45,347 nt of DNA from Bacteroidales bacterium. GTDB lineage: Bacteria > Bacteroidota > Bacteroidia > Bacteroidales > UBA932. The notes beneath the pieces are model-generated. The model did not search any database, was not told where the DNA came from, and was given only the letters and a program-made list of their open reading frames with translations. Every line of letters starts with the position of its first letter. Within the stretch, counting starts at the first letter, position 1. Both the position numbers and the translations under genes were made by a program. The stretch lies in the NCBI GenBank assembly GCA_017550025.1, contig JAFYLU010000032.1, positions 1 to 45,347 on the forward strand. Reading direction: 5' to 3'. Shown here one piece after another: positions 1 through 13,852 of this stretch.

Positions 1-227
1 AGCAGGCCCAAAGAGCCTAGTATCCAAGCGAGCCCCAAAGCACCATAACCGATATTATAGAGAGTTCCCCCTGATGGATTTTCAAATATAAACGCAAGGA
101 TTAGAAGACCGAAAAACATCAAGTTGTAGATCAACCAGAACCACCAATATTCACTTCTGGAGGCTTTTCCTTTAAAATCTGATTATTTTTTAATGAAGCA
201 GGTTTTGTAAGATTCAATGATATTCAT
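1..227 (-). pseudogene. DUF805 family membrane protein, early in-frame stop, cut by window edge
   Basis: Reading the minus strand from an ATG at 227-225 gives a start typical of DUF805 proteins (MNIIESYKTCF), then a TAA at 183-185 (codon 15). The same frame continues with DFKGKASRSEYWWFWLIYNL and hydrophobic residues to the window edge. The family normally has an aromatic residue where the stop lies, so this looks like a single nonsense change, not a frameshift. No ATG follows before the first membrane segment, so re-initiation looks unlikely. It lies 34 bp downstream of the CFI-box gene and may be the tail of the same operon. DUF805 proteins are small inner-membrane proteins of unknown function. 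The rest lies outside the window; a sequencing error cannot be excluded. Confidence 0.6.
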
Positions 228-261
228 ATCTAACTAATGTTTATATATAAGATATTCACTT

Positions 262-1044
262 TTAAACTTTTATCCTGCAAACTCCATATTTATCAGCTAG
301 AAATTGTACCATCTCCTTATATGAGTCCAGGCACCCCTGATTATCCCCCTTCCCCAACAAATCCAGACAATGATAAATCACATCTCTAATCATAGAATAT
401 ACAGAAGCAGCATCGAAATCTTGATCTATCGTCTTAACTATAGCAGGAGCAATCTCATAATATTCAGAAATAAGCTGCCTTCCTTCTTCATTTTGAGACA
501 TCCAATTATCCCGGAACTGTCTGAGTACATTCAATTCATCACAATCATCAGGCTTTCCGTAATGTTTGCACATCGCCGTAGTCAGGAAACAGAGCGAACC
601 GCTTGAGCCGGAAGAGGTCGAAGTCCCAGATCCGTAATTATGTGTTGAATACCTTGCATTATTAGCATAGCACACGAGCATAATCTGGTCTCCCGGGAAA
701 TAAAGCCCTTTATTTGCAAACCTCTGATACACACTATCAGGCATCGTATTTCTTGAGGCAACATAAAAATTGCGCCCACTGCGAGAACTTAACTTATCAA
801 CGAACTGATTTAAGCGATCGTCCTTACTATATTCCCAATCTGCACGGATAAAATCATACCATACAGTGGTCTCGCGACCGCGCAACGAAGATTCCCGGAT
901 AGTATCATCAGGCATTAAAGCCTCCCATACGCGACACGGGATATTGCATAAATATATACTTTGACCATATTTTGACCATTCTGAGGTCAGACATTCAAAT
1001 TCACGCAATTGAATATCACATCCTGCAATTGTTACTGTTGGCAT
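262..1044 (-). CDS. CFI-box-CTERM domain protein
   Basis: The protein has 260 residues. The N-terminal ~135 residues match nothing I recognise. A low-complexity Gly/Ser/Thr linker (about 138-150) joins them to a C-terminal domain starting CFLTTAMCKHYGKPDDCDEL (152-171) and continuing with LRQFRDNWM and ISEYYEIAPAIV. That is the signature of the CFI-box C-terminal domain found at the ends of many otherwise unrelated bacterial proteins; its biochemical role is not established. It has no signal peptide or clear membrane segment. It follows the metalloprotease gene by 25 bp on the same strand and is the last intact gene of the island train in the window. The linker-plus-tail design suggests a variable N-terminal module attached to a common adaptor, which is inference. 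Confidence 0.7.
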   Translation of the reverse strand: MPTVTIAGCDIQLREFECLTSEWSKYGQSIYLCNIPCRVWEALMPDDTIRESSLRGRETTVWYDFIRADWEYSKDDRLNQFVDKLSSRSGRNFYVASRNTMPDSVYQRFANKGLYFPGDQIMLVCYANNARYSTHNYGSGTSTSSGSSGSLCFLTTAMCKHYGKPDDCDELNVLRQFRDNWMSQNEEGRQLISEYYEIAPAIVKTIDQDFDAASVYSMIRDVIYHCLDLLGKGDNQGCLDSYKEMVQFLADKYGVCRIKV

Positions 1045-1069
1045 ATTTCATAAATAATTAACCTTCTTA

Positions 1070-1735
1070 TTACTTTCTTGTGCATCCAAAGGATGGATGC
1101 GCAAAAGATTCTTCAGGCGTAAGCGTAATCTGATCTCGAGACGTAAAGCCTTTCAATTCATTGACTTCAATCTCATTGAAATGTTTCATACAATCACTGA
1201 ATTTAGGAGCAGCCCCAAACTCTCCAAAATATGCCTTTGCATATTCCACTCCGGCCTCAATCGCCTCAACCCTGTCCGCTCCTCCGGGATGTGTCTCACA
1301 TTCCATTGTATCTGCAAGTGCATTCTCAAACTGGCTTACATCCATTCCGTTAAGTCCGGCCCTGACACCAGCAAAGAAATCACAGCAAAGTTCCTCCTGA
1401 TGGGAATTAAAACCAGTATCCATTCCCTGCAATACTCTATGCCCCATCTCGTGTGTCACCACCATATCAAGTCCATCCTGTTCAGAAATTCCCATTTCCA
1501 TAAACTGGTCATAACTGAACACAAGAATATCATCATTTAAAGTATATGGATTCAACGGATAAACGCCTATCGTATCCGATTCAGCCACCCCAAACGGCTC
1601 ATCAATATGAAAGAAATCACTGGCATCAGTAACAGACTGCATAATCATATCATCCGTCAAAGATGAGCCATAAAGTCCCCTGATATCATTGAACCAGGTG
1701 TCGGGAAGTAAATCTTGTATAAAATCTGGAAACAT
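1070..1735 (-). CDS. HExxH zinc metalloprotease-like protein
   Basis: The protein has 221 residues. A zinc metallopeptidase signature, HEMGH, lies at 95-99 in the context DMVVTHEMGHRVLQG. It is followed by EELCCDFFAGVRAG (114-127), whose acidic residues are the likely third metal ligand, and by a HPGGADR motif at 149-155. A HP-x-x-x-x-R motif after the active site is typical of M48-like and related gluzincin peptidases. No signal peptide or membrane segment is apparent, so a cytosolic protease is likely, with unknown substrate. It sits 52 bp after the 252-aa unknown and 25 bp before the CFI-box gene. Together with the caspase-like gene it makes two proteases in one train. Exact family assignment is uncertain. 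Confidence 0.72.
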   Translation of the reverse strand: MFPDFIQDLLPDTWFNDIRGLYGSSLTDDMIMQSVTDASDFFHIDEPFGVAESDTIGVYPLNPYTLNDDILVFSYDQFMEMGISEQDGLDMVVTHEMGHRVLQGMDTGFNSHQEELCCDFFAGVRAGLNGMDVSQFENALADTMECETHPGGADRVEAIEAGVEYAKAYFGEFGAAPKFSDCMKHFNEIEVNELKGFTSRDQITLTPEESFAHPSFGCTRK

Positions 1736-1787
1736 ATTTAGTTGATTAAGGTTTTAATATTATTGAGAGTGGAATAATGGAAATCTA

Positions 1788-2546
1788 TCACCTGATACGC
1801 GTCCTCATTTCATATGCCCTATCTATTGTTTCCTCATTGATATGTGAAACTTGCTGAGCGACCTGTGGCAGGTAATTATCCACTATTTTATAAAGTATTT
1901 TGGCCGGTGAACTTGTATCAGATAGAATAATTATGCTTGACATTATTCTTTTATATCCATCTACAGCATTTCCTCGTCTATGAGAAGTTATAACGTCTTC
2001 ATTTTTCGACAGAACAGGAATTGGCATCCAAGTCCTTCTCCCATAAATCCATTCTTCCACCTCTGCTTTAAAGATTTGGAACCTTTCATCGTGAAGGTGT
2101 TCTATTGTAGGAATGGAATGAACATACGCTTGAAAGATATCATTGAGTTGAAACAGAGATATTCTACGATGAAGTACCAACATGATAGGTATCACACTGG
2201 AATCTACTTCATCATAGTAACTAAGCGAAGTTCTACCTGCATACCACTCAAGAAGGGCTTTCATATAGACTGTTACTGCAGTATTAAAAATATCTGTATC
2301 TTCATAATCAGCAACAAAATCAAGACAATGACACTGAAGTAATAATTCTTCAAGGAGCATTTCACTGGTTGCGGAATTATTAGAATCATCGTGAAAATCT
2401 CGACAAGATCCAATTACAGTATGTATCAAAGACTCACTCTTGCAGTTCCTTTCTACAATGAGAATATCCTCTAATTTCTCTAAGGTGCAAATGACCCTAT
2501 CGAATACCACATCTTCTGACTTGAGCATTATCTCTATACCTCCCAT
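1788..2546 (-). CDS. Uncharacterised island protein, paralogue of the 315-aa protein at 7166-8113
   Basis: The protein has 252 residues and matches no family I recognise. It aligns along most of its length with the 315-aa protein upstream. Shared blocks include LxSED near the start, LLEWYAGR and YYDEVDxSVIPIM in the middle, RGxAxDGYKRI, and SxINEExID near the end. The longer paralogue has an extra acidic/charged C-terminal tail of about 50 residues missing here. It looks soluble and mostly helical. Both copies follow a zinc-ribbon gene by exactly 12 bp, so the pair was duplicated as a unit. The start could instead be the seventh codon (ATG at 2526-2528), which has GGAGGT upstream. Confidence 0.75.
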   Translation of the reverse strand: MGGIEIMLKSEDVVFDRVICTLEKLEDILIVERNCKSESLIHTVIGSCRDFHDDSNNSATSEMLLEELLLQCHCLDFVADYEDTDIFNTAVTVYMKALLEWYAGRTSLSYYDEVDSSVIPIMLVLHRRISLFQLNDIFQAYVHSIPTIEHLHDERFQIFKAEVEEWIYGRRTWMPIPVLSKNEDVITSHRRGNAVDGYKRIMSSIIILSDTSSPAKILYKIVDNYLPQVAQQVSHINEETIDRAYEMRTRIR

Positions 2547-2558
2547 AATACTTATTAC

Positions 2559-2942
2559 TTAAGGTTGCTTCATCAATTCCTCTATAAAGTTCTTGATCCA
2601 TAAAAGGTTTAGATCATTACCTATCCATGCACCTGTAACGGCTAAGGCATGATAAGAATGGGGGATTCTACAATCAAACTTAATAATACTCTCTAATCCA
2701 TCTTGTCTACAACATGGACACTCAAAATGAGCAAAGACCATTTTAAAATCATTCTCACATTTAGGGCAATACAAATGAGCATTATTCCCCACATACATAT
2801 CGCCTCTACACTTTTGGCAAACCCACTTTTGGGGAGTAACATAATGTCCTAATTCGACACATGTAGGACAGGGAGCAAACAATTGATAGTATTTAACACC
2901 GTCCTTGATAAAGCTTTTAAGTTCCATATTCGTTGATATCAT
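2559..2942 (-). CDS. Small zinc-ribbon protein (copy 4 of the island's shared module)
   Basis: At most 127 residues; the start is probably the sixth codon (ATG at 2925-2927), which aligns with the start of the copy at 8126-8488. The module reads: FIKDGVKYYQL, CPTC, CQKC, GDMYVGNNAHLYC (first Cys of CPKC), CPCC, then a variable stretch and a C-terminal helix ending in FIEELMKQP. Four CxxC pairs could bind two zinc ions. The last nine residues are identical to those of the copy at 8126-8488, suggesting a fairly recent duplication. It sits between a 55-aa membrane protein and the 252-aa unknown. Adaptor or sensor function is plausible but inferred. Confidence 0.8.
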   Translation of the reverse strand: MISTNMELKSFIKDGVKYYQLFAPCPTCVELGHYVTPQKWVCQKCRGDMYVGNNAHLYCPKCENDFKMVFAHFECPCCRQDGLESIIKFDCRIPHSYHALAVTGAWIGNDLNLLWIKNFIEELMKQP

Positions 2943-2949
2943 ATTTCAC

Positions 2950-3117
2950 CTATTCAAAGAAAAGGATATAGCAAATCATCAATATAATGACAATGATAAT
3001 CCGCACACCGATATTTTTCAGGAATACCTTCCTCCACTCTCTATTATATGCTTTATCATGTTCAGTATGATTGGTCTTCTTATTTGGAACTTCATCCGGA
3101 AAATACATTTTGCCCAT
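2950..3117 (-). CDS. Short membrane protein, 55 aa, MGKMYFPDE family
   Basis: A 55-codon reading frame runs from ATG (3117-3115) to TAG (2952-2950) on the minus strand. Its first residues, MGKMYFPDEVP, match the start of the 75-aa membrane protein at 3831-4058 (MGKMYFPDEIP), so it is a genuine gene. A charged Asn/Lys/His-rich stretch follows, then one hydrophobic segment (IGVRIIIVIILMICYILFF) and a terminal Glu. That suggests a single-pass inner-membrane protein with a cytosolic N-terminus. It lies just upstream of zinc-ribbon copy 4 and downstream of the 220-aa membrane-anchored gene. Its function is unknown; it probably pairs with a neighbouring component at the membrane. Confidence 0.72.
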   Translation of the reverse strand: MGKMYFPDEVPNKKTNHTEHDKAYNREWRKVFLKNIGVRIIIVIILMICYILFFE

Positions 3118-3142
3118 ACACACGTGTAAAACTATGTTTCTA

Positions 3143-3805
3143 TCATTTAGATTTGGAGAAGCATCTTATGAATTCTGCATCAAAACGTCTTTCCAAAGTC
3201 TCATATAGAGGGCTGCCAAATAAGTCTCTAAAAAAGTCGTACTTCTTTAGCATTTTTATAGTCTTGTCTTTTTTGCAATAACCACTGCAGAAGTGAGCCT
3301 GATTCATCATATAACAGAACAACTGTTCTGTAGTTAGCATGTCTGATATTAGTCTAACATAACGCCGTTTTGCTCTTGGTGACAAGAAGGACTTATCTAC
3401 CATTTCCACACAATCATATATGTACTTAAAGATCTGCTCTAACTCTGACCGATATTCCAACTCTCTTACAAAGTTCTCCCAGATCTCAGCAGATAAATGA
3501 CCATTCATATATTGTGTCCTCAATCTACACGAAGTTAACGAATAATAGTCCGTAAAACTTCGATAAATTGAGTGTTCAGTATTAACAACAAATTCACAAT
3601 CATCAGAACCATCTATGAACATCAACTTTCTTCCTTGTATTAACTCCGTGCTATTTATCCGAGTTCCCGAGAGTTGAACTCGTAGCATATTTGTCATAGC
3701 AGTAAACAATGTCTGAAATGACGAAACCATATACGATGCCAATGAAACCAACAAGGCGAAGAATGCTATAATAGCGACAATAATATCAACAAATACTGGG
3801 TCCAT
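3143..3805 (-). CDS. Membrane-anchored protein resembling putative phage abortive infection proteins
   Basis: The protein has 220 residues. One N-terminal membrane segment (about 5-27, VFVDIIVAIIAFFALLVSLA) is followed by a cytosolic helical region. The C-terminal half has the pattern ELEQIFKYIYDCVEMVD...RRYVRLISDMLTTEQLFCYMMNQ...MLKKYDFFRDL. This resembles the putative phage abortive infection (putAbiC) family, whose members combine N-terminal membrane segments with a Y-x-x-x-L-R-x-x-L-s-x-x-E-L-type core. The match is from memory of the family pattern and needs a profile search. It lies 25 bp after the 75-aa membrane protein and before its 55-aa relative. An abortive-infection-like effector would fit an anti-phage role for the island. 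Confidence 0.5.
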   Translation of the reverse strand: MDPVFVDIIVAIIAFFALLVSLASYMVSSFQTLFTAMTNMLRVQLSGTRINSTELIQGRKLMFIDGSDDCEFVVNTEHSIYRSFTDYYSLTSCRLRTQYMNGHLSAEIWENFVRELEYRSELEQIFKYIYDCVEMVDKSFLSPRAKRRYVRLISDMLTTEQLFCYMMNQAHFCSGYCKKDKTIKMLKKYDFFRDLFGSPLYETLERRFDAEFIRCFSKSK

Positions 3806-3830
3806 AATAGTTTAAGTTGAATTTTTGAAA

Positions 3831-4058
3831 TTATTTTATTTGCTCCCAGGCAAACATCAGGCAGCCTACAATAATTCCGACTAATACTAAACATAGGAGA
3901 GATTCCCAGAATGAAAAAGAATAATATCCGATCAAAATAGCGCCCGTAATTCCTCCACCTATAGAAACAACCCACTCTACGATATTTTTATCTTTCCAAT
4001 CTCGCTTCTTTTTCTTTGAATATGTAGGTATCTCATCCGGAAAATACATTTTTCCCAT
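3831..4058 (-). CDS. Small two-pass membrane protein, MGKMYFPDE family
   Basis: The protein has 75 residues. The start MGKMYFPDEIPTYSKKKKRDW is basic and presumably cytosolic. Two hydrophobic segments follow, roughly residues 29-48 (VVSIGGGITGAILIGYYSFS) and 53-70 (SLLCLVLVGIIVGCLMFAW). The N-terminus matches the 55-aa protein at 2950-3117, but the membrane parts differ, so the shared element is the soluble leader. It starts 2 bp after the stop of the caspase-like gene, so it is very likely co-translated with it. I do not recognise a known family. It may anchor or be cleaved by the protease, which is speculation. Confidence 0.72.
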   Translation of the reverse strand: MGKMYFPDEIPTYSKKKKRDWKDKNIVEWVVSIGGGITGAILIGYYSFSFWESLLCLVLVGIIVGCLMFAWEQIK

Positions 4059-4060
4059 AA

Positions 4061-5008
4061 CTAATACAAACAGAAATCTTTAGGATAAAAAGGAGCGTGA
4101 ATAAGTAATGGTAATTGATACTTATTCAAAACTTTAGCAGCATATATGCTAGCGAACTTATTAGCCTCCTCCAATATCTCCACTATACTCATTTCCTTAT
4201 CTATATACTCAAGCAGTCCAAAGGCAAACGGACTATGACCACCGGGAACACCATCCCAGGAATAGTGTCCTAAAGATGTAGAAACATCCATTATAGTATT
4301 CGGTCCTCCATTTACAGGATCCGTATCCCAATTACCTTCTTGGATACTTGCACAAGCATCAGATATAAGTATCACATTGTTAAAGCAAGGACTTAATTTT
4401 TCGTCCAACAACTCCAATGATATTGGATAAGATGGAGATGCACTTTCATCGGTCGCCATAATGTAATGCCGCCCTTGATTTGTTGCTCCGTGACCAGAGA
4501 AATAAAATAGGACATTCTCATAATATGGACCTTTCTCTTTGCAGAGCCTAAGTATAGAATCTACCATTGCATTTTTTGATAAATCTGTTTGCACAATGGT
4601 ATCAACCCCTATCTTCTGCAATTTCTCAGCAATAGCCCTGACATCACTAACACAATTATCTAATTTCGTACTCGGATAAGAGTAATTATTATTTCCAATC
4701 AACAACGCAACTATCTTTTTATTAGAAATCGGCGTTTCAGATAAAGGCACTTCTGTTCTTGTAGGAGCCTCATTCAATAATTCTCCATTCCACCAATATC
4801 CATAATGCACGGCAACACCATCCTTATACAATGTGCCGATACCCGACATTGTACCATTCACCCATGAGCCTAAATAAGATCTGCCATCTGGCCAGACACA
4901 AGAGGCTCTCACCGAATGCGGCAATCCATTTTCATCTAATGTTCCGATGTATAAACCACCATCGGGGAATGTATATGTTGAGAAATTGCTCATACTTATC
5001 GCCGTCAA
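4061..5008 (-). CDS. Caspase-like (C14) protease with N-terminal MORN repeats
   Basis: The protein has 315 residues. The N-terminal ~75 residues carry MORN-type repeats (PDGGLYIG, PDGRSYLGSWVNG, YKDGVAVHYGYWWNG). Then comes a caspase-hemoglobinase fold: ALLIGNNNY at about 101-109, LDNCVSDVRAIAEKL at 116-130, YFSGHGA with the candidate catalytic His at 173, and ILISDACAS with the candidate catalytic Cys at 219. Both members of the dyad are present, so it is likely active. Caspase-like proteases cleave partner proteins and in bacteria often trigger cell death or activate effectors. MORN repeats commonly bind lipids or proteins. Its start overlaps the preceding zinc-ribbon stop by 4 bp, implying coupled translation. 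Candidate substrates are the neighbouring proteins; this is inference. Confidence 0.88.
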   Translation of the reverse strand: MTAISMSNFSTYTFPDGGLYIGTLDENGLPHSVRASCVWPDGRSYLGSWVNGTMSGIGTLYKDGVAVHYGYWWNGELLNEAPTRTEVPLSETPISNKKIVALLIGNNNYSYPSTKLDNCVSDVRAIAEKLQKIGVDTIVQTDLSKNAMVDSILRLCKEKGPYYENVLFYFSGHGATNQGRHYIMATDESASPSYPISLELLDEKLSPCFNNVILISDACASIQEGNWDTDPVNGGPNTIMDVSTSLGHYSWDGVPGGHSPFAFGLLEYIDKEMSIVEILEEANKFASIYAAKVLNKYQLPLLIHAPFYPKDFCLY

Positions 5009-5319
5009 ATATTATCTAGAATGCACATAAACCATTTCAAGGAATTTTCGACAACGCCGACATTGCCTACAGAAATAGCAGATGCAATTTCTTTCCTTGA
5101 GGCTATTGTGCGATTATGAAGTCCTTTATCACAACTCATCCTCATATCAGTGATATGAGCATATTTTCCGCATCTGCTGCAATGAATAAATGCCCTCTCA
5201 TCAATATACAGCCGACCATTGCAGGTTCCTCCATGAGTCCACTGTTCTAATTGAAAATCATTATTATTTGCTGCACATTTAGGACAAGGCATTAACAAAT
5301 TAAATTTTCTCTGACTCAT
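5005..5319 (-). CDS. Small zinc-ribbon protein (copy 3, shortened)
   Basis: The protein has 104 residues. It lacks the N-terminal G-V-x-Y-Y-x-L strand seen in copies 1, 2 and 4, but keeps CPKC, then TCNGRLYIDERAFIHC (first Cys of CSRC), a lone Cys where the last pair normally lies, and a C-terminal amphipathic helix (ISVGNVGVVENSLKWFMCIL). The CNGxLYI-D-A-x-x-x-C core matches the tail of the large GTPase (CNGHLYVGDNAEMVCGKC). The gene overlaps the AAA+ ATPase end by 20 bp and the caspase start by 4 bp. It is therefore sandwiched between them and probably made in fixed ratio, suggesting an adaptor between ATPase and protease (inference). Confidence 0.75.
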   Translation of the reverse strand: MSQRKFNLLMPCPKCAANNNDFQLEQWTHGGTCNGRLYIDERAFIHCSRCGKYAHITDMRMSCDKGLHNRTIASRKEIASAISVGNVGVVENSLKWFMCILDNI

Positions 5320-6772
5320 TTCTCTTTCGCGCTTCAGTCGTCCTTTGCTCAGTACTCTTTATGACAGATACAGCGGACTTAAAGTCATCCTTAGTTATTC
5401 TAACATCATTAACATCCTTAGACATTGTTGCCTTTCCATTAACGTCCATTTGGAGTTGTCTCCTTATCGCGGACATCGCAGTTTCTGTATATAAAGCAGA
5501 AATGTCCGCTCCAGAAAAGCCTTCAATCAGATTAGCTAAAGACATCAAGAATTCATCGGTTACTGTATCATCGAATACGGTTTTATCCTCCCATTTAACA
5601 TATTTGCACAATATGTCATATCTGGACTCACAATCAGGTTGAGGTACCTCCAAATCTTTATCGAATCGACCTGGACGACGTAAAGCAGGATCAATTGCAT
5701 TTAATCGATTAGTCGCTCCAATAACAAAGACACGATGGCTTGATTTAATACCATCCATTAAGGAAAGAAGTTTACCGACTAAAGAAATTTCATGATTCTG
5801 GCTATCTTTCTCTCTGATTGATGCGATAGAATCAATCTCATCTATAAAGATCACTGCATTTCTCTTTCTTTCGGCTTCCTCAAATTTCTTCCCCAGATTA
5901 TATTCTCCGACTCCCTTATACTTTTGCAGTGCATCTGACAAATCAATCTCTATGAATGCTGCTCCAAAAGACTGTGCAACAGCTCGTGCAATCATCGTCT
6001 TACCGTTGCCTGGAGGTCCATATAGAAGAACTCCTTTCGGTGGTTTGACACCAAACTTTGCAAAATATTCAGGATAATTCAGCGGAAGCTGTATCATTCG
6101 TCTAAGCTCATCAATAACCTTTTTCTGTCCTCCTATTTTCGAGAAGTCAATTACCTGCTGTGGATTCAGTGGTTTGCCTTTAACGATTATCTCTGTCTCT
6201 GACGTTATCCTACAAGGCAATGAGTCAGACACCGGCTTGGGGATAACCTCAGTAAAGTCACATACCACAGCATCCTTGACAGATCTGTTGAAGAAGTATT
6301 TTTGCTGAGTACAAAAAAGATTGACCTGTTTTCTAAAATCTTTTTCAGCAGCCTCAAATTCAGTCTCAGACCAGGTCTCAACATCATCCTCACGCAATCT
6401 AATGGTCACAGATTCAGCTATAGGAACCTCGGAGATATCCATAACTGATATTTCAACTTCAGACCTTTTATTTGTCGTATTGTCTCTTTGAGGCATTAGT
6501 TCTTTAGCAAACCAGACATACCCTCTACCTTCAGTCAAATAACGTGATTGGCTAGGCAATTTTGCTAGTTTTGTATACAATACAAAATCCGTTAATTCTA
6601 ATGGATTATGACATTCTATCTTGATGTAAAATTCTACCATTCCATCACGATATGTCGGATATGCCTCTAAAAGTTCATTCCAGTCATCTTCCAACATCCA
6701 TGCAGTCAAGCCATGCGGCGACAGATCATAATGATTATGGGCAGCACTATATTTAAGAATTTTGAACTTCAT
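5300..6772 (-). CDS. AAA+ ATPase with Cdc48-like N-domain
   Basis: The protein has 490 residues. The N-terminal ~200 residues resemble the Cdc48/VCP substrate- and cofactor-binding domain (VPIAESVTIRL, then a region ending CRITSETEIIVKG). A single classical AAA domain follows: linker IDFSKIGGQKKVIDELR (209-225), Walker A GPPGNGKT (252-259), a YKGVGE pore-loop region (285-290), Walker B IFIDEID (308-314), sensor ATNR (353-356) and arginine fingers RRPGRF (365-370). All key residues are intact. The C-terminus is charged and helical. Known relatives unfold or extract proteins as hexamers. It is encoded 7 bp after zinc-ribbon copy 2 and overlaps copy 3, so ribbon proteins may be its adaptors. It probably feeds substrates to a protease or remodels the GTPase complex; the target is unknown. 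Confidence 0.9.
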   Translation of the reverse strand: MKFKILKYSAAHNHYDLSPHGLTAWMLEDDWNELLEAYPTYRDGMVEFYIKIECHNPLELTDFVLYTKLAKLPSQSRYLTEGRGYVWFAKELMPQRDNTTNKRSEVEISVMDISEVPIAESVTIRLREDDVETWSETEFEAAEKDFRKQVNLFCTQQKYFFNRSVKDAVVCDFTEVIPKPVSDSLPCRITSETEIIVKGKPLNPQQVIDFSKIGGQKKVIDELRRMIQLPLNYPEYFAKFGVKPPKGVLLYGPPGNGKTMIARAVAQSFGAAFIEIDLSDALQKYKGVGEYNLGKKFEEAERKRNAVIFIDEIDSIASIREKDSQNHEISLVGKLLSLMDGIKSSHRVFVIGATNRLNAIDPALRRPGRFDKDLEVPQPDCESRYDILCKYVKWEDKTVFDDTVTDEFLMSLANLIEGFSGADISALYTETAMSAIRRQLQMDVNGKATMSKDVNDVRITKDDFKSAVSVIKSTEQRTTEARKRNESEKI

Positions 6773-6779
6773 GGATAGT

Positions 6780-7148
6780 TTATTTACATTGTTTCAGCAA
6801 TGAAGCAGTCACTCTATTCAACCATTCCAAGCCAGCAAGCCCCGTAACCATACCGGAGATAGATAATGCTTCACCTAAATGTTTAAGGTCATCTAGGTAT
6901 ACACTTTTCTCATGTCCAGCTTTTTTACAATCACAGCAAACATATCCCCATTCTATAATTGGAGCACTATAACCACAATCCAGACAATAATAATATCCGT
7001 TATCGCCTATATACATATCTCCATCATCTTTAGTATGTTTCCAATATTCCGGAGTGGTTGGACGTCTTTCCATAAGACAGACAGGACATGCTATATACAA
7101 CTGATAATACTCGACCCCATTTTTTGTAAAATGTTTTACCTCTGGCAT
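6780..7148 (-). CDS. Small zinc-ribbon protein (copy 2)
   Basis: The protein has 122 residues. The shared module is clear: FTKNGVEYYQL, CPVC, then GDMYIGDNGYYYC (first Cys of CLDC), CCDC, and a C-terminal helix LSISGMVTGLAGLEWLNRV ending KQCK. The second CxxC pair of copies 1 and 4 is replaced by a His/Lys/Asp stretch (KHTKDDGD), so it probably binds one zinc firmly. The C-terminal G-x-A-G-L-E-W-L matches the end of the large GTPase (SKAGLEWFGR). It lies 17 bp after the 315-aa unknown and 7 bp before the AAA+ ATPase. Its function is unknown; adaptor is the simplest idea. Confidence 0.78.
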   Translation of the reverse strand: MPEVKHFTKNGVEYYQLYIACPVCLMERRPTTPEYWKHTKDDGDMYIGDNGYYYCLDCGYSAPIIEWGYVCCDCKKAGHEKSVYLDDLKHLGEALSISGMVTGLAGLEWLNRVTASLLKQCK

Positions 7149-7165
7149 AATTCTATATTATTAAA

Positions 7166-8113
7166 TTATTTGACATCAATATTAATTTCAGAATACTTGA
7201 TATTATGTGCATCAAGTATCTCTTTTACTTTTTCATACAGTAATGGATAAAGTTGATCCAGATCCTTATGTGATTCCGCTCTTGTTTCATTCTTTGGTTC
7301 AGAACACTTGATTTCAGTTACAAAACCTTGAGCCTTCCTTTCATACAATTCATCAATAGCCTCCTCATTAATATTTGAAATCTGCTTTGTTATGTCTGGC
7401 AGATACTTATTTACCATCTTATAGAACATTTTTACAGGTGCGCTCGTATCAAACGATGTTGTTAAAGCGGCTATGATTCTTTTATAACCATCCAATGCCG
7501 TTCCGCGAACATGAGGCGTGACATAACTTTCATTATCTGTCTGAATCGGAGGGTTATTTGCAGACACATCAGCATAATGCTTTCCTAACAGCCATGCCTC
7601 AACACCTTCCTTTACCATTATATACTTCTCTTCTTGAGTTCGTTCAACAGATGGAATCGTGTAAACATATTTTTGAAATATCTCCGATACGTTGTTTGAT
7701 TCATAGGTAATAGCCACCATAATAGGGATTACACTTGCATCTACTTCATCATAATAATCAAGCAAATGTCTACCAGCATACCACTCAAGAAGATCTTTCA
7801 TAAAAGACTCGACGGCAATTCTGAAAACCTCACTATCATCATAATGAGCCGCCATGTACAACGTATTGCATTGCAACGCCAATTCCATGAAATAACTATC
7901 ACGAGTAGGGACGTTTTTCACATCATCATGATAATCACGATCAGTTCCAACTGCTGTAAGTTTCAGTTCGAAAGCACTCCTTTGTCTTTCAGAATTAAGG
8001 AATCTCTCTAGTCTCTCCAAGGCAATAATTGTCCTATGGAAATTGTTATCCTCAGACTGGAGCTGCGCCTGAACGTCTCCAATCTGATCCTTTTTGTTTT
8101 TATTCCAAAACAT
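7166..8113 (-). CDS. Uncharacterised 315-aa island protein
   Basis: I recognise no known family. It looks soluble, with a basic start (FWNKNKKDQ), a helical body, and a charged C-terminal extension from about residue 265 (KCSEPKNETRAESHKDLDQ) ending in a possible short alpha/beta element. Blocks conserved with its paralogue at 1788-2546 are LLEWYAGRHLLDYYDEVDAS, RGTALDGYKRI and SNINEEAID. The conserved acidic/aromatic core (YYDEVD) could be a binding or catalytic site, but nothing in the sequence proves it. It lies 12 bp after zinc-ribbon copy 1; the same two-gene order recurs at 1788-2942. Confidence 0.75.
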   Translation of the reverse strand: MFWNKNKKDQIGDVQAQLQSEDNNFHRTIIALERLERFLNSERQRSAFELKLTAVGTDRDYHDDVKNVPTRDSYFMELALQCNTLYMAAHYDDSEVFRIAVESFMKDLLEWYAGRHLLDYYDEVDASVIPIMVAITYESNNVSEIFQKYVYTIPSVERTQEEKYIMVKEGVEAWLLGKHYADVSANNPPIQTDNESYVTPHVRGTALDGYKRIIAALTTSFDTSAPVKMFYKMVNKYLPDITKQISNINEEAIDELYERKAQGFVTEIKCSEPKNETRAESHKDLDQLYPLLYEKVKEILDAHNIKYSEINIDVK

Positions 8114-8125
8114 AATGTTTATAAA

Positions 8126-8488
8126 TTAGGGTTGTTTCATCAGTTCCTCAATAAATTTGTTTAACCAAGCCAGTCCAGCCACGCTTGATAGTGTCACCGC
8201 CATTGATAGAGAGGTTGAGATATTGGGCTGAGAAGTAAATTCAACCGTATTACACAACACTCCTGATGAACAGCATGGACATATATAATGAGCATAAATA
8301 GCTTTAAAGTCTTTTTCGCACTTAGAACAATACATATGTGCATTATCACCGACATAAATATCACCACCACATTCTCCACAAACCCAAAAACTAGGGTCAC
8401 AAGGACTACCATTTTTCATACATTCAGGGCAACTGACATATAGTTGATAATATATAACTCCTTCCTTGATAAAGTTTTTGATTTCCAT
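8126..8488 (-). CDS. Small zinc-ribbon protein (copy 1)
   Basis: The protein has 120 residues and shows the most complete form of the module: FIKEGVIYYQL, CPEC, CGEC, GDIYVGDNAHMYC (first Cys of CSKC), CPCC, and a C-terminal helix LSMAVTLSSVAGLAWLNKF ending FIEELMKQP. Eight cysteines in four CxxC pairs suggest two zinc sites. It follows the large GTPase by 12 bp. Since that GTPase carries a degraded form of the same module at its C-terminus, copy 1 may have arisen from, or given rise to, that fused domain. The short Ala/Gly-rich C-terminal helix might contact membrane or partner protein. Confidence 0.8.
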   Translation of the reverse strand: MEIKNFIKEGVIYYQLYVSCPECMKNGSPCDPSFWVCGECGGDIYVGDNAHMYCSKCEKDFKAIYAHYICPCCSSGVLCNTVEFTSQPNISTSLSMAVTLSSVAGLAWLNKFIEELMKQP

Positions 8489-8500
8489 ATACTTTACATC

Positions 8501-11008
8501 TTATATATTTCTCATTGCAGAAAGACAACGCCCAAACCATTCTAATCCTGCTTTAGATACAACGCTTCCGACAATGGCTGTATTAATATCTTGTATACTA
8601 TTTGTGCAATTCAAAACTTTAAAAGCATCACCATTCTCTTTTGATTCTTGCTTCCAATAATTGGCGTGCTTGATTTCTCCACACTTCCCACATACCATTT
8701 CGGCATTATCACCCACATAAAGATGTCCATTACATTCATTATCTCCGTGGATATATTTATCCAGTTTATGATACACCACCCCATCCTTCTCAAAAACTTC
8801 CTGATCCGGTGGGATTACAAAATGCGGTTCTTCTCTGGCCGGAGCAACAGGTAGATCCAGTTTCGAAGGAGCAGGCTGATCATAGGAGAAGATCGGCTTG
8901 TCAGGTTTCGGCTCTTCATACTGTTCAAACGAGAATTCCGGAATCTTCTGGTCCTCTGTCATTGGCGTGAAATCGACATCACCAGCATCAAGACCTTTTC
9001 TAAGCACATTCAGACTCGCAAGGAGGCCTCGCAATGTCTTGTTTTCTTCATCAAGCTTGAGCATACGAGCCTGAACCTTCTGCTCTCCCATCTGCTTGTC
9101 TGCCTTGATCTGATTAATGAGTTTCTCTACCGACTGCAGTTCCTTATCAATCGAAGAACCGATTGAGACTGTTCCTTCTGAAAGTTTAGCCCTTAAAAGC
9201 GCCACAGCATTTGTCACTGACTGACCTCTTTCTGAACGAATCTGGGCAACAACCTGTTCTGATGTCTTGATACGTATATTCTCTTCTATCTTCTCAATGC
9301 CTCGCTTCAATCCGGTAAAACCAGCCACAAGTACTCCGAGAATAGTTATAGGATTAGTGATTCCGAAAATAAGTCCAAGGACAAATCCTACTGCAATCTG
9401 AGTTGCCAAGGTCTTAATGAAATCGGCAGAGAATCCTAATGCACCGCCTGCTACAGCACCTCCAAAGCCAGCACCGAAGAAACCTGTAACCAAAGCAATA
9501 GCCCTCTCGGTCATACTTGTGGTCACAAAATCATCCGCTCCTGCAACTCTTAACTTTATCTTCTCAATATCAATAAATATCTGTGCAAGAGCAGCCTGAT
9601 ATTTATCTGCCATCTCATTTAACTGCATCTGCAGGAATGGCTCAAACTTTTCGGCTTGCCACCTTTTCTGCGATGTTTCAATACGATTCTGAAGTTTTTC
9701 AATCAGCTCCTTACTGAAACTATTGATACTTTCCTTGACCTTGAAAGGATTCCACTTCACGCGATTGATCTCACTGATTTCGATTTCATTGACAATCCTT
9801 GGGATATCAGAAATAAGTTCATCGTATCTATTTTCGAGTATTCTACCTGTGTCTACACAAATCTTTGAAATGTGATTCTCAAGAGATGTAATCCAGATAT
9901 CTTTCTCCTTTTTCAGTCTCTCAAGATTCGGTAACTCTTTCTGTAAACGCTTGTCTATTTCCTGGATAGAAGTTCCCAGCATCTTCTTCTCTGTCGGAAT
10001 TACTGTGGCAATTGCACGTTCCAATGCGACTTCCAGTTGACCAAGTGGCTGAAGCAATTTTATTGTTCCTCGCTTATTGGCAAGAAAATCATCAAGAGCC
10101 TCTTCAAATTCCGGCATTCCGGATTGGTTGAGCTTAACAGAATCTCCTTCATACTTACCATCCTTTGCTGCTTCTGCATTTATGAAGTATATTCCTTTTT
10201 CTCCTAATCTCGTCTTGTCACTCAGTCGCTTCGTTATATATCGTTTTACTTCTTCACGATCTCGCTCTTTTGTAAGATTGATCTTATTGCCCACAAACAT
10301 CGTATATTCGTGTCCACCCCCCAGAATATATGCATCAATGGCTTCCATGTCAATTATTCCGCAAGGCGACTGACAGTCCATTACGAAAATTATGGCATCT
10401 GCATTAGACAGATAACTCATCGTTACCTTTGTCCTTGTTTCATTTTCATTAAGTCCCGGGGTATCTATGATTTCTACCCCTTTCTCACAAATCGGCAGAT
10501 CCCAATAAATCTCCGCTTTCGCAAACGGGGTCTGAGCAATTCCCATCTTTTGATCAGGATCTTCCGTCTCATCATCAATTACAACATATTTATTAAGGCA
10601 CTCCACCGGAATCGGCATAGAAGGAATCTGCATACCTTTGTATTTCTCCATATGTAACTTGACATCATATGCCAATTTCGGTAATGGGGAAGGTACAGGA
10701 TGCTTGAAGTGGATTATAGCATGCTTCTCTTTTGAGTATTTAATTTCATTGATTACTGCCGTACAAGGGGTCGCTTTTGCAGGGAGCAAGTCACCACCGC
10801 CAAGCAAAGCATTGATGAATGTACTCTTGCCGACCTTGAACTGGCCCATGATCACCACCTTGAACGAGTCTTCGCTCAATTTTTTATACAGGTTCTCACA
10901 AACAGAAAGTTCTGACGACATCTTAAGGTCATTAAACACGCCTGCCGCCTGCTTGATATCCTCAAGCAACTGATTCTTTTTATTGTTATATAAATCTATC
11001 TGGCTCAT
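8501..11008 (-). CDS. Dynamin-like GTPase with membrane hairpin and C-terminal zinc-ribbon module
   Basis: The protein has 835 residues. It contains a dynamin/GTPase domain with G1 GQFKVGKST (55-63), switch threonines in AKATPCTAV, G3 DTPG (182-185) and a G4-like NKIN (241-244; canonical NKxD has Asp). Long helical stalk regions (about 320-490 and 575-670) flank a Gly/Ala-rich hydrophobic hairpin (about 503-565), as in bacterial dynamin-like proteins that insert into membranes. A Pro/Glu-rich linker (690-736) leads to a zinc-ribbon-like tail (737-835) with YVGDNAEMVCGKC and SKAGLEWFG. It overlaps the preceding GTPase stop by one base (TAATG). Bacterial dynamin-like pairs remodel or repair membranes, and some defend against phage; that role here is inference. 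The ribbon tail tethers it to the other ribbon-bearing proteins of the island. Confidence 0.88.
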   Translation of the reverse strand: MSQIDLYNNKKNQLLEDIKQAAGVFNDLKMSSELSVCENLYKKLSEDSFKVVIMGQFKVGKSTFINALLGGGDLLPAKATPCTAVINEIKYSKEKHAIIHFKHPVPSPLPKLAYDVKLHMEKYKGMQIPSMPIPVECLNKYVVIDDETEDPDQKMGIAQTPFAKAEIYWDLPICEKGVEIIDTPGLNENETRTKVTMSYLSNADAIIFVMDCQSPCGIIDMEAIDAYILGGGHEYTMFVGNKINLTKERDREEVKRYITKRLSDKTRLGEKGIYFINAEAAKDGKYEGDSVKLNQSGMPEFEEALDDFLANKRGTIKLLQPLGQLEVALERAIATVIPTEKKMLGTSIQEIDKRLQKELPNLERLKKEKDIWITSLENHISKICVDTGRILENRYDELISDIPRIVNEIEISEINRVKWNPFKVKESINSFSKELIEKLQNRIETSQKRWQAEKFEPFLQMQLNEMADKYQAALAQIFIDIEKIKLRVAGADDFVTTSMTERAIALVTGFFGAGFGGAVAGGALGFSADFIKTLATQIAVGFVLGLIFGITNPITILGVLVAGFTGLKRGIEKIEENIRIKTSEQVVAQIRSERGQSVTNAVALLRAKLSEGTVSIGSSIDKELQSVEKLINQIKADKQMGEQKVQARMLKLDEENKTLRGLLASLNVLRKGLDAGDVDFTPMTEDQKIPEFSFEQYEEPKPDKPIFSYDQPAPSKLDLPVAPAREEPHFVIPPDQEVFEKDGVVYHKLDKYIHGDNECNGHLYVGDNAEMVCGKCGEIKHANYWKQESKENGDAFKVLNCTNSIQDINTAIVGSVVSKAGLEWFGRCLSAMRNI

Positions 11009-12528
11009 TATCTTATACCCTCAATCTGATTTATAATATCATTTATCTTTTCTATTTCCTTATCCTCAGCACATTCGAACTCATCCTGACCATAGGTCTC
11101 AGCCCAAATCTTCTCTTTTTCACCTACGGCATTGGATAGTTCTTCGTATAATCCTTGGATTCTTGAAGGGATCATATCGGCCATCTTTCCTATGGTCTCA
11201 TCTACCACATTGGCGACAAGACCCTTTAAAGTCTCACGTTGGCCATCGATAACTTTATTGACATATCTGTCGCCGATTATTCCACAAGCAGCACTTACCA
11301 TTGCTCCGACAGGTCCTATAGCATACCATATCATAGTTGCCAATGTTGCGCTTCCAGCCATAGTTATGTATCTTGCAGTACGTAAGTTCTTGAACGTATG
11401 AGACTCTGAATCCAACTTAAAATCCAGATGATAATTCACAGGACTCTTATCTTCCATTGTTACAGATTGCCTGAAGCGGTTTTGCATCTCACGATTAAGC
11501 CAATTCAAGTCTCTCATAACACGAGATTGAACATTTGCATCCAAAGCATTTGACAAAGCCTCAATCTCATTTTTCAGCATTATTGGAAGCATCTTCTCCC
11601 ACCATTCCTTCGGATTCGGAGTGGAAATGATCGAAGCATTCAGTTTATCAACAATCTTGGCCTTAGACTTATTCAACTGCAGCAGAATAGTTTCCACACA
11701 CTCGCTTTCCAGCTTTTCGTATGCGACACGTATCTCTGACCATCCCAAACGGATCAATTGCTTTTTGGAAATCTTAGCACAATGATCCGCATATTTCAAA
11801 TCTCTTTCGGCTACCAGCTTTAACTTCTTGTCATTAACTTCTGAAATGAGATTATCTGTAGTTTTCTCTATTATTCTTTCTGCAATCTGAACACGCTGGT
11901 CTAATGTATTTCCACTGGATAAAGATTTTTCAATGACTGCCTTAAGAACTAGTGCTCCGTATTTATCTGAAATATCATCGGGAACTTCCATTAATTCTTC
12001 ATCAGAATAATACACAACCGGTAGATTTGGCTGCTTCGCAGTAACATATCTGACAACCTCAGGCAATTCTTTAGGTTTTACATTGTTCAGATGAGTAACA
12101 CATAAAACTATGTATTTATGGCCTCGTTCCATCAGTTCACCTAATACACGGACATCATCAAGACTCCACAATGCAGTTGCCTTCAAACACAAAACCACTA
12201 CGTCTGACATCATATATCCCATCTCAGGACATTTTTGGTCAATATCAAAACCTGTCCTTATTTCATATGCCAATCCCGATGATTCAGGCTTCACCTCATA
12301 TAAACTTCCCGGCTTGAATATGCTTGTAGGCAATACATCTGAATCCAGCATAGAATTGACCAAAGAACATTTTCCCGATGCCTTTGCTCCTATGACACTG
12401 ACTATGGGTGATTTATGTTCTAAAAACAGATCCAAGTCATCCAGCATTACGAGGTCTGTTTTCAAACAATGCTGCTCGGACAATATCCGGAGCGAGTGTA
12501 TCTTATCTTTTACCTGCTGATATCTCAT
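11008..12528 (-). CDS. Partner dynamin-like GTPase with degenerate G domain
   Basis: The protein has 506 residues. The P-loop reads GAKASGKC (47-54): the Ser/Thr that coordinates magnesium is Cys. No DxPG G3 motif is seen before SDVVVLCLKA, and the G4 region reads THLN. It therefore probably binds GTP weakly or not at all. Helical regions follow, with a hydrophobic hairpin near residues 385-420 (YITMAGSATLATMIWYAIGP). Two adjacent, unequal dynamin-like genes are a known bacterial arrangement, where the two proteins form a hetero-complex. The start overlaps the acidic 129-aa gene by 4 bp and the stop overlaps the active GTPase start by 1 bp. It is probably the regulatory or structural half of the GTPase pair. 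Confidence 0.78.
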   Translation of the reverse strand: MRYQQVKDKIHSLRILSEQHCLKTDLVMLDDLDLFLEHKSPIVSVIGAKASGKCSLVNSMLDSDVLPTSIFKPGSLYEVKPESSGLAYEIRTGFDIDQKCPEMGYMMSDVVVLCLKATALWSLDDVRVLGELMERGHKYIVLCVTHLNNVKPKELPEVVRYVTAKQPNLPVVYYSDEELMEVPDDISDKYGALVLKAVIEKSLSSGNTLDQRVQIAERIIEKTTDNLISEVNDKKLKLVAERDLKYADHCAKISKKQLIRLGWSEIRVAYEKLESECVETILLQLNKSKAKIVDKLNASIISTPNPKEWWEKMLPIMLKNEIEALSNALDANVQSRVMRDLNWLNREMQNRFRQSVTMEDKSPVNYHLDFKLDSESHTFKNLRTARYITMAGSATLATMIWYAIGPVGAMVSAACGIIGDRYVNKVIDGQRETLKGLVANVVDETIGKMADMIPSRIQGLYEELSNAVGEKEKIWAETYGQDEFECAEDKEIEKINDIINQIEGIR

Positions 12529-12914
12529 AACTCAAAGTTGTCATCACTGTTAAACATAGCCTCATGCTCATCTATATATAATGTAGAATCTTCAGTATCA
12601 TTATTCGCAATCTCAAAACCATTCGCATCAGGTTCAGATGTATCGTTCCATTCACCATCTAACAAATGCCCGTCAACTTCAGGTAAATCAAAATCATCAA
12701 ATCCATAAGCAGAATATTCCGGATTCAAATCGACGACTGCCTCATTTACCCAATCCTGGCCTGTATATCCTACTTCATCAACAAGTTCCTGCATATCTAT
12801 ATCTGACTTCAAGCAAGTCTCCACATACCCGACTTCTTCAGCAGTCAGATTGCCCTCAAGATATGCTCCAAGCATTTCTTCCGATATTGGCAACGGCTCC
12901 AAATGTTTCAGCAT
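12525..12914 (-). CDS. Small acidic protein with anti-sigma-like N-terminus
   Basis: The protein has 129 residues. The N-terminal ISEEMLGAYLEGNLTAEEV resembles the helix that opens many anti-sigma factors (the E-L-L-x-x-Y-L-D-G-x-L pattern), but the His/Cys zinc ligands and a membrane segment are missing. The C-terminal two thirds are strongly acidic and low-complexity (FDDFDLPEVDG, NNDTEDSTLYIDEHEAMF). The gene overlaps the sigma-factor stop by 7 bp and the GTPase start by 4 bp. Position and N-terminus suggest a cytosolic anti-sigma factor or a link between the sigma factor and the GTPase pair; both are inference. Nothing in it indicates an enzyme. Confidence 0.6.
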   Translation of the reverse strand: MLKHLEPLPISEEMLGAYLEGNLTAEEVGYVETCLKSDIDMQELVDEVGYTGQDWVNEAVVDLNPEYSAYGFDDFDLPEVDGHLLDGEWNDTSEPDANGFEIANNDTEDSTLYIDEHEAMFNSDDNFEL

Positions 12915-13468
12915 ATTCCCTCCTTTTTGAGCGTCATGACAAACTGCTCTTTAGCCAGTTTATGTTTATTGTAATAGTTGTCCATCGACATTCCCAGCAG
13001 CTGGGCCGTTTCTTCATTGCTCTTTTCTTCCAGATAACGGTATCTGATAAGAGTCCTGTATCTCATATTAGGCATCTGGGCCAAGACTATCTCGATATCG
13101 CTATGATTGATTGAACTTATATTTAAAGTGGAAGTTTCATGGATATTTCTATCAGTTGGCTCTGAATCTGCGAGTTCAATTCTTTTATGGAAAAGCTGCC
13201 TGCAATAATTCTCTGCAACGATCTTAAGCCATAGGACAAAATGACAACGGAATCCGAATGATTCCAAAGGACTTTTTCCTGTTTGAGGATTTGGAGTCAT
13301 TATATATACATAAATTGTATTAATGAACTCGACGCACGAACTACAATCAGTATAGTATTTATTCCATACTGATTTAAACAAAGGATAATATTCAATATAA
13401 AGATATTGCTTTGTTATAGCCACATCCCTGGATAAGATTCCTTGCACTATTTCCTGATCGCTGGTCAT
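12908..13468 (-). CDS. ECF-like sigma-70 factor
   Basis: The protein has 186 residues. Region 2 is recognisable but divergent (YYPLFKSVWNKYY, then FVLWLKIVAENYCRQ). Region 4 is clearer, with a helix-turn-helix in RYRYLEEKSNEETAQLLGMS followed by YYNKHKLAKEQF. The length and the lack of regions 1 and 3 fit the extracytoplasmic-function class. It is the first protein gene of the island train and is preceded by a structured RNA with its own promoter and terminator. It probably directs RNA polymerase to this operon or to other island promoters, with the next gene as its regulator. No second copy of a non-standard promoter was identified, so its target is unknown. Confidence 0.82.
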   Translation of the reverse strand: MTSDQEIVQGILSRDVAITKQYLYIEYYPLFKSVWNKYYTDCSSCVEFINTIYVYIMTPNPQTGKSPLESFGFRCHFVLWLKIVAENYCRQLFHKRIELADSEPTDRNIHETSTLNISSINHSDIEIVLAQMPNMRYRTLIRYRYLEEKSNEETAQLLGMSMDNYYNKHKLAKEQFVMTLKKEGIC

Positions 13469-13479
13469 TTAGTTTAGGT

Positions 13480-13518
13480 CGTGCGTTTCTGCGACAGTCT
13501 CCCGGAATCACAGATGCA
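13480..13518 (-). promoter_or_regulatory. Hairpin in the leader just before the sigma-factor start
   Basis: Between the RNA terminator and the sigma ATG, GUGC...GCAC and UCUG...CAGA can pair to form a short hairpin that ends about 12 nt before the start codon. It could affect translation; this is visible pairing only, not a recognised element. Confidence 0.3.
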
Positions 13519-13519
13519 C

Positions 13520-13794: not shown

Positions 13795-13800
13795 GCTTTG

Positions 13801-13808
13801 CAAATATA
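13801..13808 (-). promoter_or_regulatory. Bacteroidetes-type -7 box (TATATTTG) for the structured RNA and island operon
   Basis: An exact TAnnTTTG match lies 7-8 bp before the outer 5' helix of the RNA. No TTTG lies at the usual 19-20 bp spacing; the nearest is 12 bp away (13821-13824), so the -33 element is weak or absent. That may mean an alternative sigma factor contributes. Confidence 0.55.
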
Positions 13809-13852
13809 AGATTAATTTTACAAAAACGATTAAAACTGCATGAAAAACACAT

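Follow-up and report, generated by a model that had tools for sequence, protein, structure and literature searches.

What does a run of sixteen closely packed genes do at the end of a bacterial contig, when its products combine a sigma factor, two dynamin-like proteins, proteases and repeated zinc ribbons? The run occupies positions 262–13468, on the minus strand, of contig C30 (45,347 bases), which was analysed whole and is called the window here; the source is a Bacteroidales draft genome of 2.62 Mb in 121 contigs. By its composition and context, the predicted gene set points to a GTPase-centred conflict system whose composition is new. We give roughly even odds (about 0.5) to the reading that it is a transferred conflict island of this kind, probably directed against phage or envelope damage. 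We read it as a probable defence system tied to the membrane and equipped with a transcription switch of its own, its defence role being what we infer from the parts and their neighbours. Ahead of its first gene lies a conserved, structured leader RNA that fronts very different accessory operons in other genomes.

Composition of the gene train

All sixteen open reading frames (ORFs) listed in the original prediction as compact and often overlapping are present, running from the sigma gene (start 13468) to the gene for a CFI-box-CTERM protein (end 262). In order of transcription, the first half encodes the sigma factor, an anti-sigma-like protein, a small dynamin, a large dynamin with a fused ribbon, zinc-ribbon protein 1, HP-A, zinc-ribbon protein 2 and an AAA ATPase. 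Zinc-ribbon protein 3, a caspase, a protein with two transmembrane (TM)-like stretches, an AbiC-like protein, zinc-ribbon protein 4, HP-B, a metalloprotease-like protein and the CFI-box protein follow. The fifteen junctions measure -7, -4, -1, 12, 12, 17, 7, -20, -4, 2, 25, 200, 12, 52 and 25 nucleotides (nt). Eleven lie between -20 and +17 nt and thirteen are overlapping or at most 25 nt, the remaining two being those of 52 and 200 nt. The single direction and tight spacing indicate that these genes form one train, preceded by a TAnnTTTG box and the leader RNA. As had been noted, the train is AT-richer than its flank, with 38.7% G+C (228–13468) vs 47.9% (13905–45347).

Pfam was scanned with all sixteen proteins, and NCBIfam and PADLOC with ten each; TM-like stretches were called by crude hydropathy. 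The large dynamin-like GTPase (8501–11008, 835 amino acids) matches Dynamin_N (PF00350, 1.2e-23) and Dynamin-like_hel_bact (5.9e-8), both over the curated cut-off. It carries the motifs GQFKVGKS and DTPG, a G4 reading NKIN rather than NKxD, and a zinc ribbon fused at the C-terminus. The adjacent small dynamin-like protein (11008–12528, 506 amino acids) has degenerate GTPase motifs: its P-loop reads GAKASGKC and DxPG is missing. A Dynamin_N domain with G1, G3 and G4 in one partner, beside a second dynamin, is thus found here as in bacterial dynamin pairs.

At the head of the train, the ECF-type sigma factor (12908–13468, 186 amino acids; TIGR02937, 1.3e-8, below cut-off) is followed by the anti-sigma-like protein (12525–12914, 129 amino acids). 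Over 84 amino acids the latter shares 50% identity with the head of a C39-like partner protein that its own genome encodes at another locus, and its only Pfam match is a sub-threshold zf-HC2 (0.089). Homologues carry a C39-like domain that is absent from the window copy. Inhibition of the sigma factor by this partner is predicted from position and homology.

Zinc-ribbon proteins 1 (8126–8488), 2 (6780–7148) and 3 (5005–5319) were recognized by ribbon alignment, the second also by the Pfam scan, and protein 4 (2559–2942) matches the A2L zinc ribbon (PF08792, 3.2e-5, over cut-off). Their genes directly precede those of HP-A, the AAA ATPase, the caspase and HP-B, respectively, while the fifth ribbon is the one fused to the large dynamin; when aligned, the ribbons have a common C-terminal segment after the metal sites. 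HP-A (7166–8113, 315 amino acids) has no convincing family in the Pfam or NCBIfam scans and is 44% identical to its paralogue HP-B (1788–2546, 252 amino acids), identified by sequence comparison. Ribbons and HP proteins together uphold the claim that the region duplicates its own parts. Placement before four genes and fusion to the large dynamin suggest that the ribbon is a shared adaptor joining its partners to one scaffold. Effector-associated domains have been proposed to join partners to a common scaffold in conflict systems, in the available text of PMC7159879 and PMC8195603.

The Cdc48/PAN-type AAA+ ATPase (5300–6772, 490 amino acids; PF00004, 1.5e-39, over cut-off) has a single AAA domain and an N-terminal region of its own, with GPPGNGKT (Walker A), VIFIDE (Walker B) and RRPGRFD (arginine finger); it scores 5.8e-77 against TIGR01243 (259.6 of 802.65 bits). 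The caspase-like protease (4061–5008; PF00656, 7.6e-23, over cut-off) carries SGHG (His) and SDAC (Cys) motifs. Completing the train are the small protein with two TM-like stretches (3831–4058, 75 amino acids), the AbiC-like protein with an N-terminal TM-like stretch (3143–3805, 220 amino acids; PF16872, 4.3e-4), the zinc metalloprotease-like protein with a HEMGH motif (1070–1735; M48, PF01435) and the CFI-box-CTERM protein (262–1044, 260 amino acids; NF041770, 8.5e-18, over cut-off). Among the domain parts first proposed, the large dynamin, AAA ATPase, caspase and ribbon 4 thus stand over cut-off, while the sigma, small dynamin, MORN, M48 and AbiC calls are weak or below it.

Related sigma operons

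A second genome, G054, in another family of the order, has the core of the train as one group: the sigma factor, the anti-sigma-like protein, the degenerate small dynamin and the active-looking large dynamin. Its operon encodes sigma, an anti-sigma-C39 protein, a third dynamin (Dynamin_N, 2.6e-11), the small dynamin (32% identical) and the large dynamin (44%). No further same-strand gene was noticed between the large dynamin and the next gene on the opposite strand.

The source genome itself holds a second sigma gene, 89% identical, on contig C27 (locus L031), whose partner retains the C39-like domain. Sigma and partner are followed by a dynamin not close to those of the window, Hsp70, another dynamin, a 188-amino-acid protein, a protein with a TM-like look and a zinc-ribbon array. 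The array (325–4954 of L031) consists of double zinc-ribbon proteins with near-identical heads (86–94% DNA identity over 168–192 nt) and different tails, a pattern that fits the ribbon's suggested role as adaptor. A GrpE-like reading of one C27 gene was dropped after Pfam gave no family. A tRNA gene lies at 14146–14216 of L031 (G000:C27), a few hundred bases upstream of the sigma module, and is a possible integration site.

Further relatives extend the range of partners. G044 (L032) encodes sigma, a C39 partner (over cut-off), a dynamin, Hsp70, two DO-GTPase-like proteins (one over the Pfam cut-off, one below) and a dynamin. G627 has sigma and a C39 protein (both over cut-off), a dynamin, Hsp70 with a zinc-ribbon tail, a dynamin and a zinc-ribbon protein; a vWA reading of one of its genes was discarded, as Pfam gave no family. 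The related sigma of G021 (L059, 3780–9597) lies directly upstream of SIR2-like (below cut-off), TIR and nSTAND1 genes, and G004 (L060, 6099–7118) joins sigma and a C39-like domain in a single reading frame, both below cut-off. In G940, sigma (30% identical to the window's) follows a membrane protein that weakly matches RCK and RyR and precedes a C39-like plus RyR partner and TIR-FGE, all behind the same leader RNA as in the window. From the C27, G054, G044, G627, G021, G004 and G940 loci we conclude that a related sigma, usually with a C39-like partner, repeatedly heads GTPase, chaperone, TIR and STAND operons. The conflict context originally proposed is borne out by these SIR2-like/TIR/nSTAND1, TIR-FGE and DO-GTPase-like/Hsp70/dynamin neighbours.

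Comparison with known systems

In its logic the gene set comes closest to the GTPase-centric (DO-GTPase/GAP1) conflict systems (Kaur et al. 2020, PMC7159879), which in the available text combine variable effectors with zinc ribbons, TM components and GTPases that are paired or paralogous, and in some cases with HSP70 and GrpE. The window likewise has variable effectors alongside ribbons and TM components, and the related locus G044 carries its two DO-GTPase-like genes beside dynamins. However, the window has dynamins, and PF19975 and PF19993 are absent from both of them at E≤1. No GAP1, tubulin or Hsp70 was recognized in the sixteen genes by Pfam (for the AAA gene, among the best 25 of 28 families). 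The island is not a member of the DO-GTPase/GAP1 family, the defining domains of which were not found. In the available main text of PMC7159879 the word "dynamin" is absent, as is "sigma" at the start of a word.

An ECF sigma and a caspase within a predicted conflict operon also link the window to the EACC/caspase-centred systems with ECF sigma in the portions seen of Kaur et al. 2021 (PMC8195603). Unlike EACC1, the window has dynamins, its caspase reaches only 33.9 of 140 bits against NF047832 and no TRADD-N protein was recognized. PADLOC relates the large dynamin to LeoA (6.3e-25) and LeoBC (1.9e-23) and the small one to LeoBC (5.5e-7), but there are only two dynamin genes, no one-to-one match, a fused ribbon, a sigma gene at the head and a different gene set from LeoABC. 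Similarly, the AAA domain matches IetA of the IetAS ATPase/protease pair (7.2e-30), yet scores 85.3 of 510 bits against NCBIfam IteA; no partner protease was recognized and the Cdc48 match is better (5.8e-77, below cut-off). In the partial text of the open-licence literature we found no description of a system with this gene set, as originally stated, but the logic follows PMC7159879. If the reading holds, the parts known from GTPase-centred conflict systems would come to include dynamins, a sigma factor and a repeated zinc-ribbon adaptor, and the order of events could be tested.

Probable insertion site and distribution

Upstream of sigma lies PNP (PF01048), present in 34 of 41 genus genomes (E≤1e-60) and 91–94% identical in the closest congeners. 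This count, like all distribution counts here, includes the source genome, and the genome samples are partial draws. In five of six congeners, with genes downstream of PNP named by likeness, NAD synthase follows PNP directly or behind an MBL-fold gene; the sixth has another gene. Congener G670, for example, has PNP, 52 nt, MBL and NAD synthase. In the source genome, MBL and NAD synthase (both Pfam-confirmed) sit apart from PNP, on contig C34. On the PNP-facing side of MBL are a DUF1232 gene, a gene for a 211-amino-acid TM-like protein without a family and a WG-repeat gene, all oriented towards MBL and so in the direction expected of the train. These three are likely, by synteny, to be the train's far end. 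The island would thus be inserted after PNP, because its likely far end on C34 adjoins genes found downstream of PNP in congeners. PNP and MBL appear to be separated by at least 13.5 + 2.1 kb, with the middle of the block unassembled. Transfer, as first proposed, is therefore favoured by synteny; of the proposed gene set the sixteen ORFs stand, but the train is truncated where the contig stops, probably continues on C34, and has a leader RNA that had been missed.

The system is rare and patchy in the sampled genomes, in line with the occurrence expected by the original prediction. At E≤1e-20, two of 198 order genomes have the large dynamin, namely the source genome and G054. A two-row alignment search of 395 class genomes at E≤1e-40 returned it from the source genome alone, with G054 lacking a match row there, and a contig scan with two N-terminal patterns returned only the G054 locus. 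HP-A occurs in 1 of 41 genomes, its own. The zinc-ribbon alignment gave two of 247, its own and one match (G149) that was dropped as chance, its frame being rich in CxxCH motifs and multihaem-cytochrome-like. Sigma matches at E≤1e-15 occur in three of 121 congeners: the source genome with two copies, to which close copies are confined, and two at 27–30% identity. Anti-sigma-C39 proteins are found in 9 of 247 genomes. Searches of mobile elements gave distant dynamin matches only, in 7 plasmid records (<60% identity) and 1 phage record. Viral contigs held no relative of the large dynamin (six patterns) or of HP-A/HP-B (two patterns).

Proposed mechanism and alternatives

In the proposed mechanism, the anti-sigma-like protein would hold the sigma factor until an intracellular cue, and the released sigma would raise expression of the train; homologous partners carry the C39-like domain that may serve in release. 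The two dynamins would form a heteromeric membrane scaffold responding to membrane damage or phage entry, to which the ribbons may bring HP-A, the AAA ATPase, the caspase and HP-B. There the ATPase would unfold target proteins and the caspase and metalloprotease would cut them, while the small TM and AbiC-like proteins may act at the membrane.

Several observations count against the conflict-island reading. Both sigma scores are below cut-off (TIGR02937, 34.6 of 42.9 bits; Sigma70_r4_2, 24.8 of 25.7 bits), as are the Dynamin_N match of the small dynamin (0.0073, covering the P-loop part only), the N-terminal MORN match of the caspase (0.11), the M48 match of the metalloprotease (0.025) and, narrowly, the AbiC match (21.2 of 22 bits). 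C39 matches at L014, L031 and L060 also fall below cut-off. The window partner has no C39-like domain, so the proposed release step is absent here or located elsewhere. The ribbon-adaptor idea is drawn from gene order and paralogy. The draft genome is 83.5% complete with 6.4% contamination, the relation between C30 and C34 is predicted from synteny rather than a sequenced join, and no integrase was recognized beside the operon.

The best-surviving alternative is a regulated operon for envelope stress and protein quality control, in which the dynamins would mend membranes, the AAA ATPase and proteases would clear damaged membrane proteins and the sigma factor would sense stress, with no conflict role. 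Sigma, dynamins, AAA ATPase and metalloprotease all suit stress repair, and PADLOC returned single-protein matches rather than a set for the ten proteins scanned. Many leader-headed operons, moreover, read as lipoproteins or exported proteins, although these were not counted by class. Rarity and transfer, on the other hand, are unusual for housekeeping stress genes, and relatives of the sigma head the SIR2-like/TIR/nSTAND1 and TIR-FGE operons; we regard this explanation as doubtful. Chance accretion of non-cooperating modules (dynamin pair, ribbon-effector pairs, AbiC, CFI-box) at a mobile-island hotspot would fit the G054 module, which stops after the large dynamin without ribbons, AAA ATPase or caspase, and the 200-nt gap from AbiC to ribbon 4, but overlapping genes in a single direction and ribbon paralogues throughout the train, one fused to the large dynamin, make it unlikely.

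A conserved leader RNA upstream of sigma

Between the sigma gene and PNP, on the minus strand, lies a leader RNA of ~290 nt (13520–13800), recognized by its fold z and covariation. It consists of a 5' hairpin and the 244-nt core of a covariance model, R1, built from eleven copies, and ends in a T run. Fold z of the window copy is -6.7 (13515–13800). The TAnnTTTG box TATATTTG (13801–13808, minus strand), which we take to be the Bacteroidetes -7 consensus, stands directly before it, and the terminator-like hairpin and T run end ~50 nt before the sigma start codon. The train had been described as under its own sigma; the sigma gene does head it, but just upstream stand the box, of ordinary appearance, and the leader, which is also found without any sigma gene. 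The C27 copy shares 354 nt upstream of sigma, within a 77% match spanning 12792–13822.

The leader is the larger point of this work: it is structured, and 27 of 157 sampled genera have it ahead of accessory operons that differ widely. At E≤0.01 a DNA search located it in 22 of 151 congeners; in ten, counting the source genome, the match was at least 236 nt long. RNA searches over more than 40 genomes used stricter filters: model R1 found it in 41 of 330 congeners at E≤1e-4 and, at E≤1e-3, in 31 of 218 order genomes, which make up the 27 genera, with up to eight matches per genome. In 21 order-level matches aligned to R1 and not used in building it, 94.4% of cells pair, and 328 cells are changed on both sides vs 96.6 in shuffles. 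Rfam 15 gave no match in ten copies (window and L031 at gathering and at E≤1, eight more at gathering), and 6S RNA and other known RNAs were rejected as identities on that ground. None was found in viral contigs (two exact patterns) or in phages or plasmids (blastn). In the main-text portions seen of Weinberg 2010 (PMC2864571) and Fremin 2021 (PMC8040213), we found no description of the leader. A table seen in PMC2864571 has one 2010 motif, Bacteroides-2, without an Rfam number, so that an unnamed earlier candidate for the leader is possible.

Two folds are conserved in a 32-copy alignment. Fold A, a rod of 64 pairs, has 89.3% of cells paired, with 152 cells changed on both sides vs 51.0 when shuffled and at most 58 when slid. 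Fold B, two hairpins with a 43-pair core, has 91.7% paired, with 45 such cells vs 14.8 shuffled and at most 18 slid. In fold B the strand GACGTGGG pairs with CCCACGTC, directly before the T run; in fold A it pairs with the 5' half. The folds are mutually exclusive because this strand is used in both. Computed energies of the window core are -96.6 kcal/mol for the whole and -43.0 and -43.2 kcal/mol for the halves. A terminator-like hairpin with T run and a fold that excludes it are thus both conserved across the 32 copies, and the leader has the predicted plan of a transcription attenuator. The 3' hairpin and T run would terminate transcription before sigma unless the whole RNA formed the competing rod. 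The 5' segment and an internal helix can form at least 8 Watson–Crick pairs in 13 of the 19 motif-containing sequences among 23 examined, a raw count without a chance control.

Promoter and start codon positions were examined in 31 copies of at least 60 bits from the genus set and the source genome, kept from 40 matches; the nine left out were all under 60 bits, some of them antisense. In 29 of 31 copies a TAnnTTTG box stands 22–91 nt ahead of the core, vs 2.5% of random positions (interval 20–95 nt). The distance from the leader to the first ATG, counting ORFs of at least 60 codons, is 41–55 nt in 22 of 31, vs 5.5% of random positions and 5.9% of positions after gene ends. Among 20 order-level copies (one of the 21 matches was left out), 18 have the box and 17 an ATG within 120 nt.

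These data bear on a second view of the leader, that it is a stand-alone small RNA (for example 6S-like, from the rod shape) ending at its terminator, with the operon driven by an unrelated sigma-dependent promoter of its own. Fold B does finish in a strong hairpin and T run, and most leader-bearing genomes have one or few copies. The start codon spacing argues otherwise, yet it recurs in only 6 of 20 order-level copies; up to eight matches per genome and the lack of an Rfam match in the ten copies scanned also speak against an independent RNA, which we consider improbable. A conserved structured leader is well supported; a regulated gate, as predicted from the paired folds, is less so. JUMPstart and EAR are leader RNAs of long acquired operons, located between promoter and first gene. 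The window leader resembles them in its position before accessory operons; unlike them it lacks an Rfam match in the ten copies scanned, has two competing folds and a terminator-like 3' hairpin, and belongs to Bacteroidales.

Leader cargo is varied. It includes the two sigma operons of the source genome, sigma-TIR-FGE (L135), JAB plus ThiF (L148), Hsp70 (L142), tubulin-like (L094), AbiH (L093) and Schlafen AlbA_2 (L089) genes, and DUF3800 (L138) behind a weak 35-bit copy. Because of this variety, and as much of the cargo is lipoprotein- or exported-like, the leader marks accessory operons, not defence as such. Nor was it found at the sigma loci L013, L014, L032, L033, L034, L059 and L060, so sigma and leader are separable.

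A tentative extension is that this previously unrecognised, Bacteroidales-wide leader acts as a bistable gate. Termination before the first gene would silence accessory and mobile operons, conflict islands included, and a common cue, such as an altered RNA polymerase, slower transcription or a phage product, would open it. Two thresholds, one set by the RNA gate and the next by the sigma/anti-sigma loop, would then act in series in the window island, over a dynamin scaffold with ribbon-recruited proteases. If the leader gates operons in this way, a number of acquired blocks may be under its control and defence islands may share a trigger. Several features of the fold analysis temper the gate. 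The alignment was sequence-only, its 32 copies hand-picked from 51 of at least 60 bits, and the shuffled controls ignore the relatedness of the copies. Fold B was first drawn with 83 pairs from the window halves, of which only 76.2% of cells paired, and the 43-pair core was chosen after those counts were seen. Two-sided changes in the 5' segment/internal helix occur in only two sequences (L091, L139), with a 6-bp variant in L138 and weak pairing in the rest.

Other observations

Leader copies are located in the window (13520–13800) and at loci L089–L102, L131–L148 and L168–L187. On one small contig of G824 (L138, 2251–4750), three matches (35, 21 and 217 bits) fall within 2.5 kb. At L143, L144 and L176, a RadC-like gene and a 195-amino-acid frame lie just upstream of the leader; the three loci come from two genomes, each from a different family. 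Pfam identifies the frame as a tyrosine recombinase in L143 and L144, RadC was Pfam-scanned in L143 and the remaining assignments are by likeness. At its far side in the window, the train runs into the contig end within a DUF805 fragment (1–227, minus strand; DUF805, 2.9e-7, over cut-off, on the piece after the stop), whose frame carries an early in-frame TAA that reflects either real decay or an assembly error.

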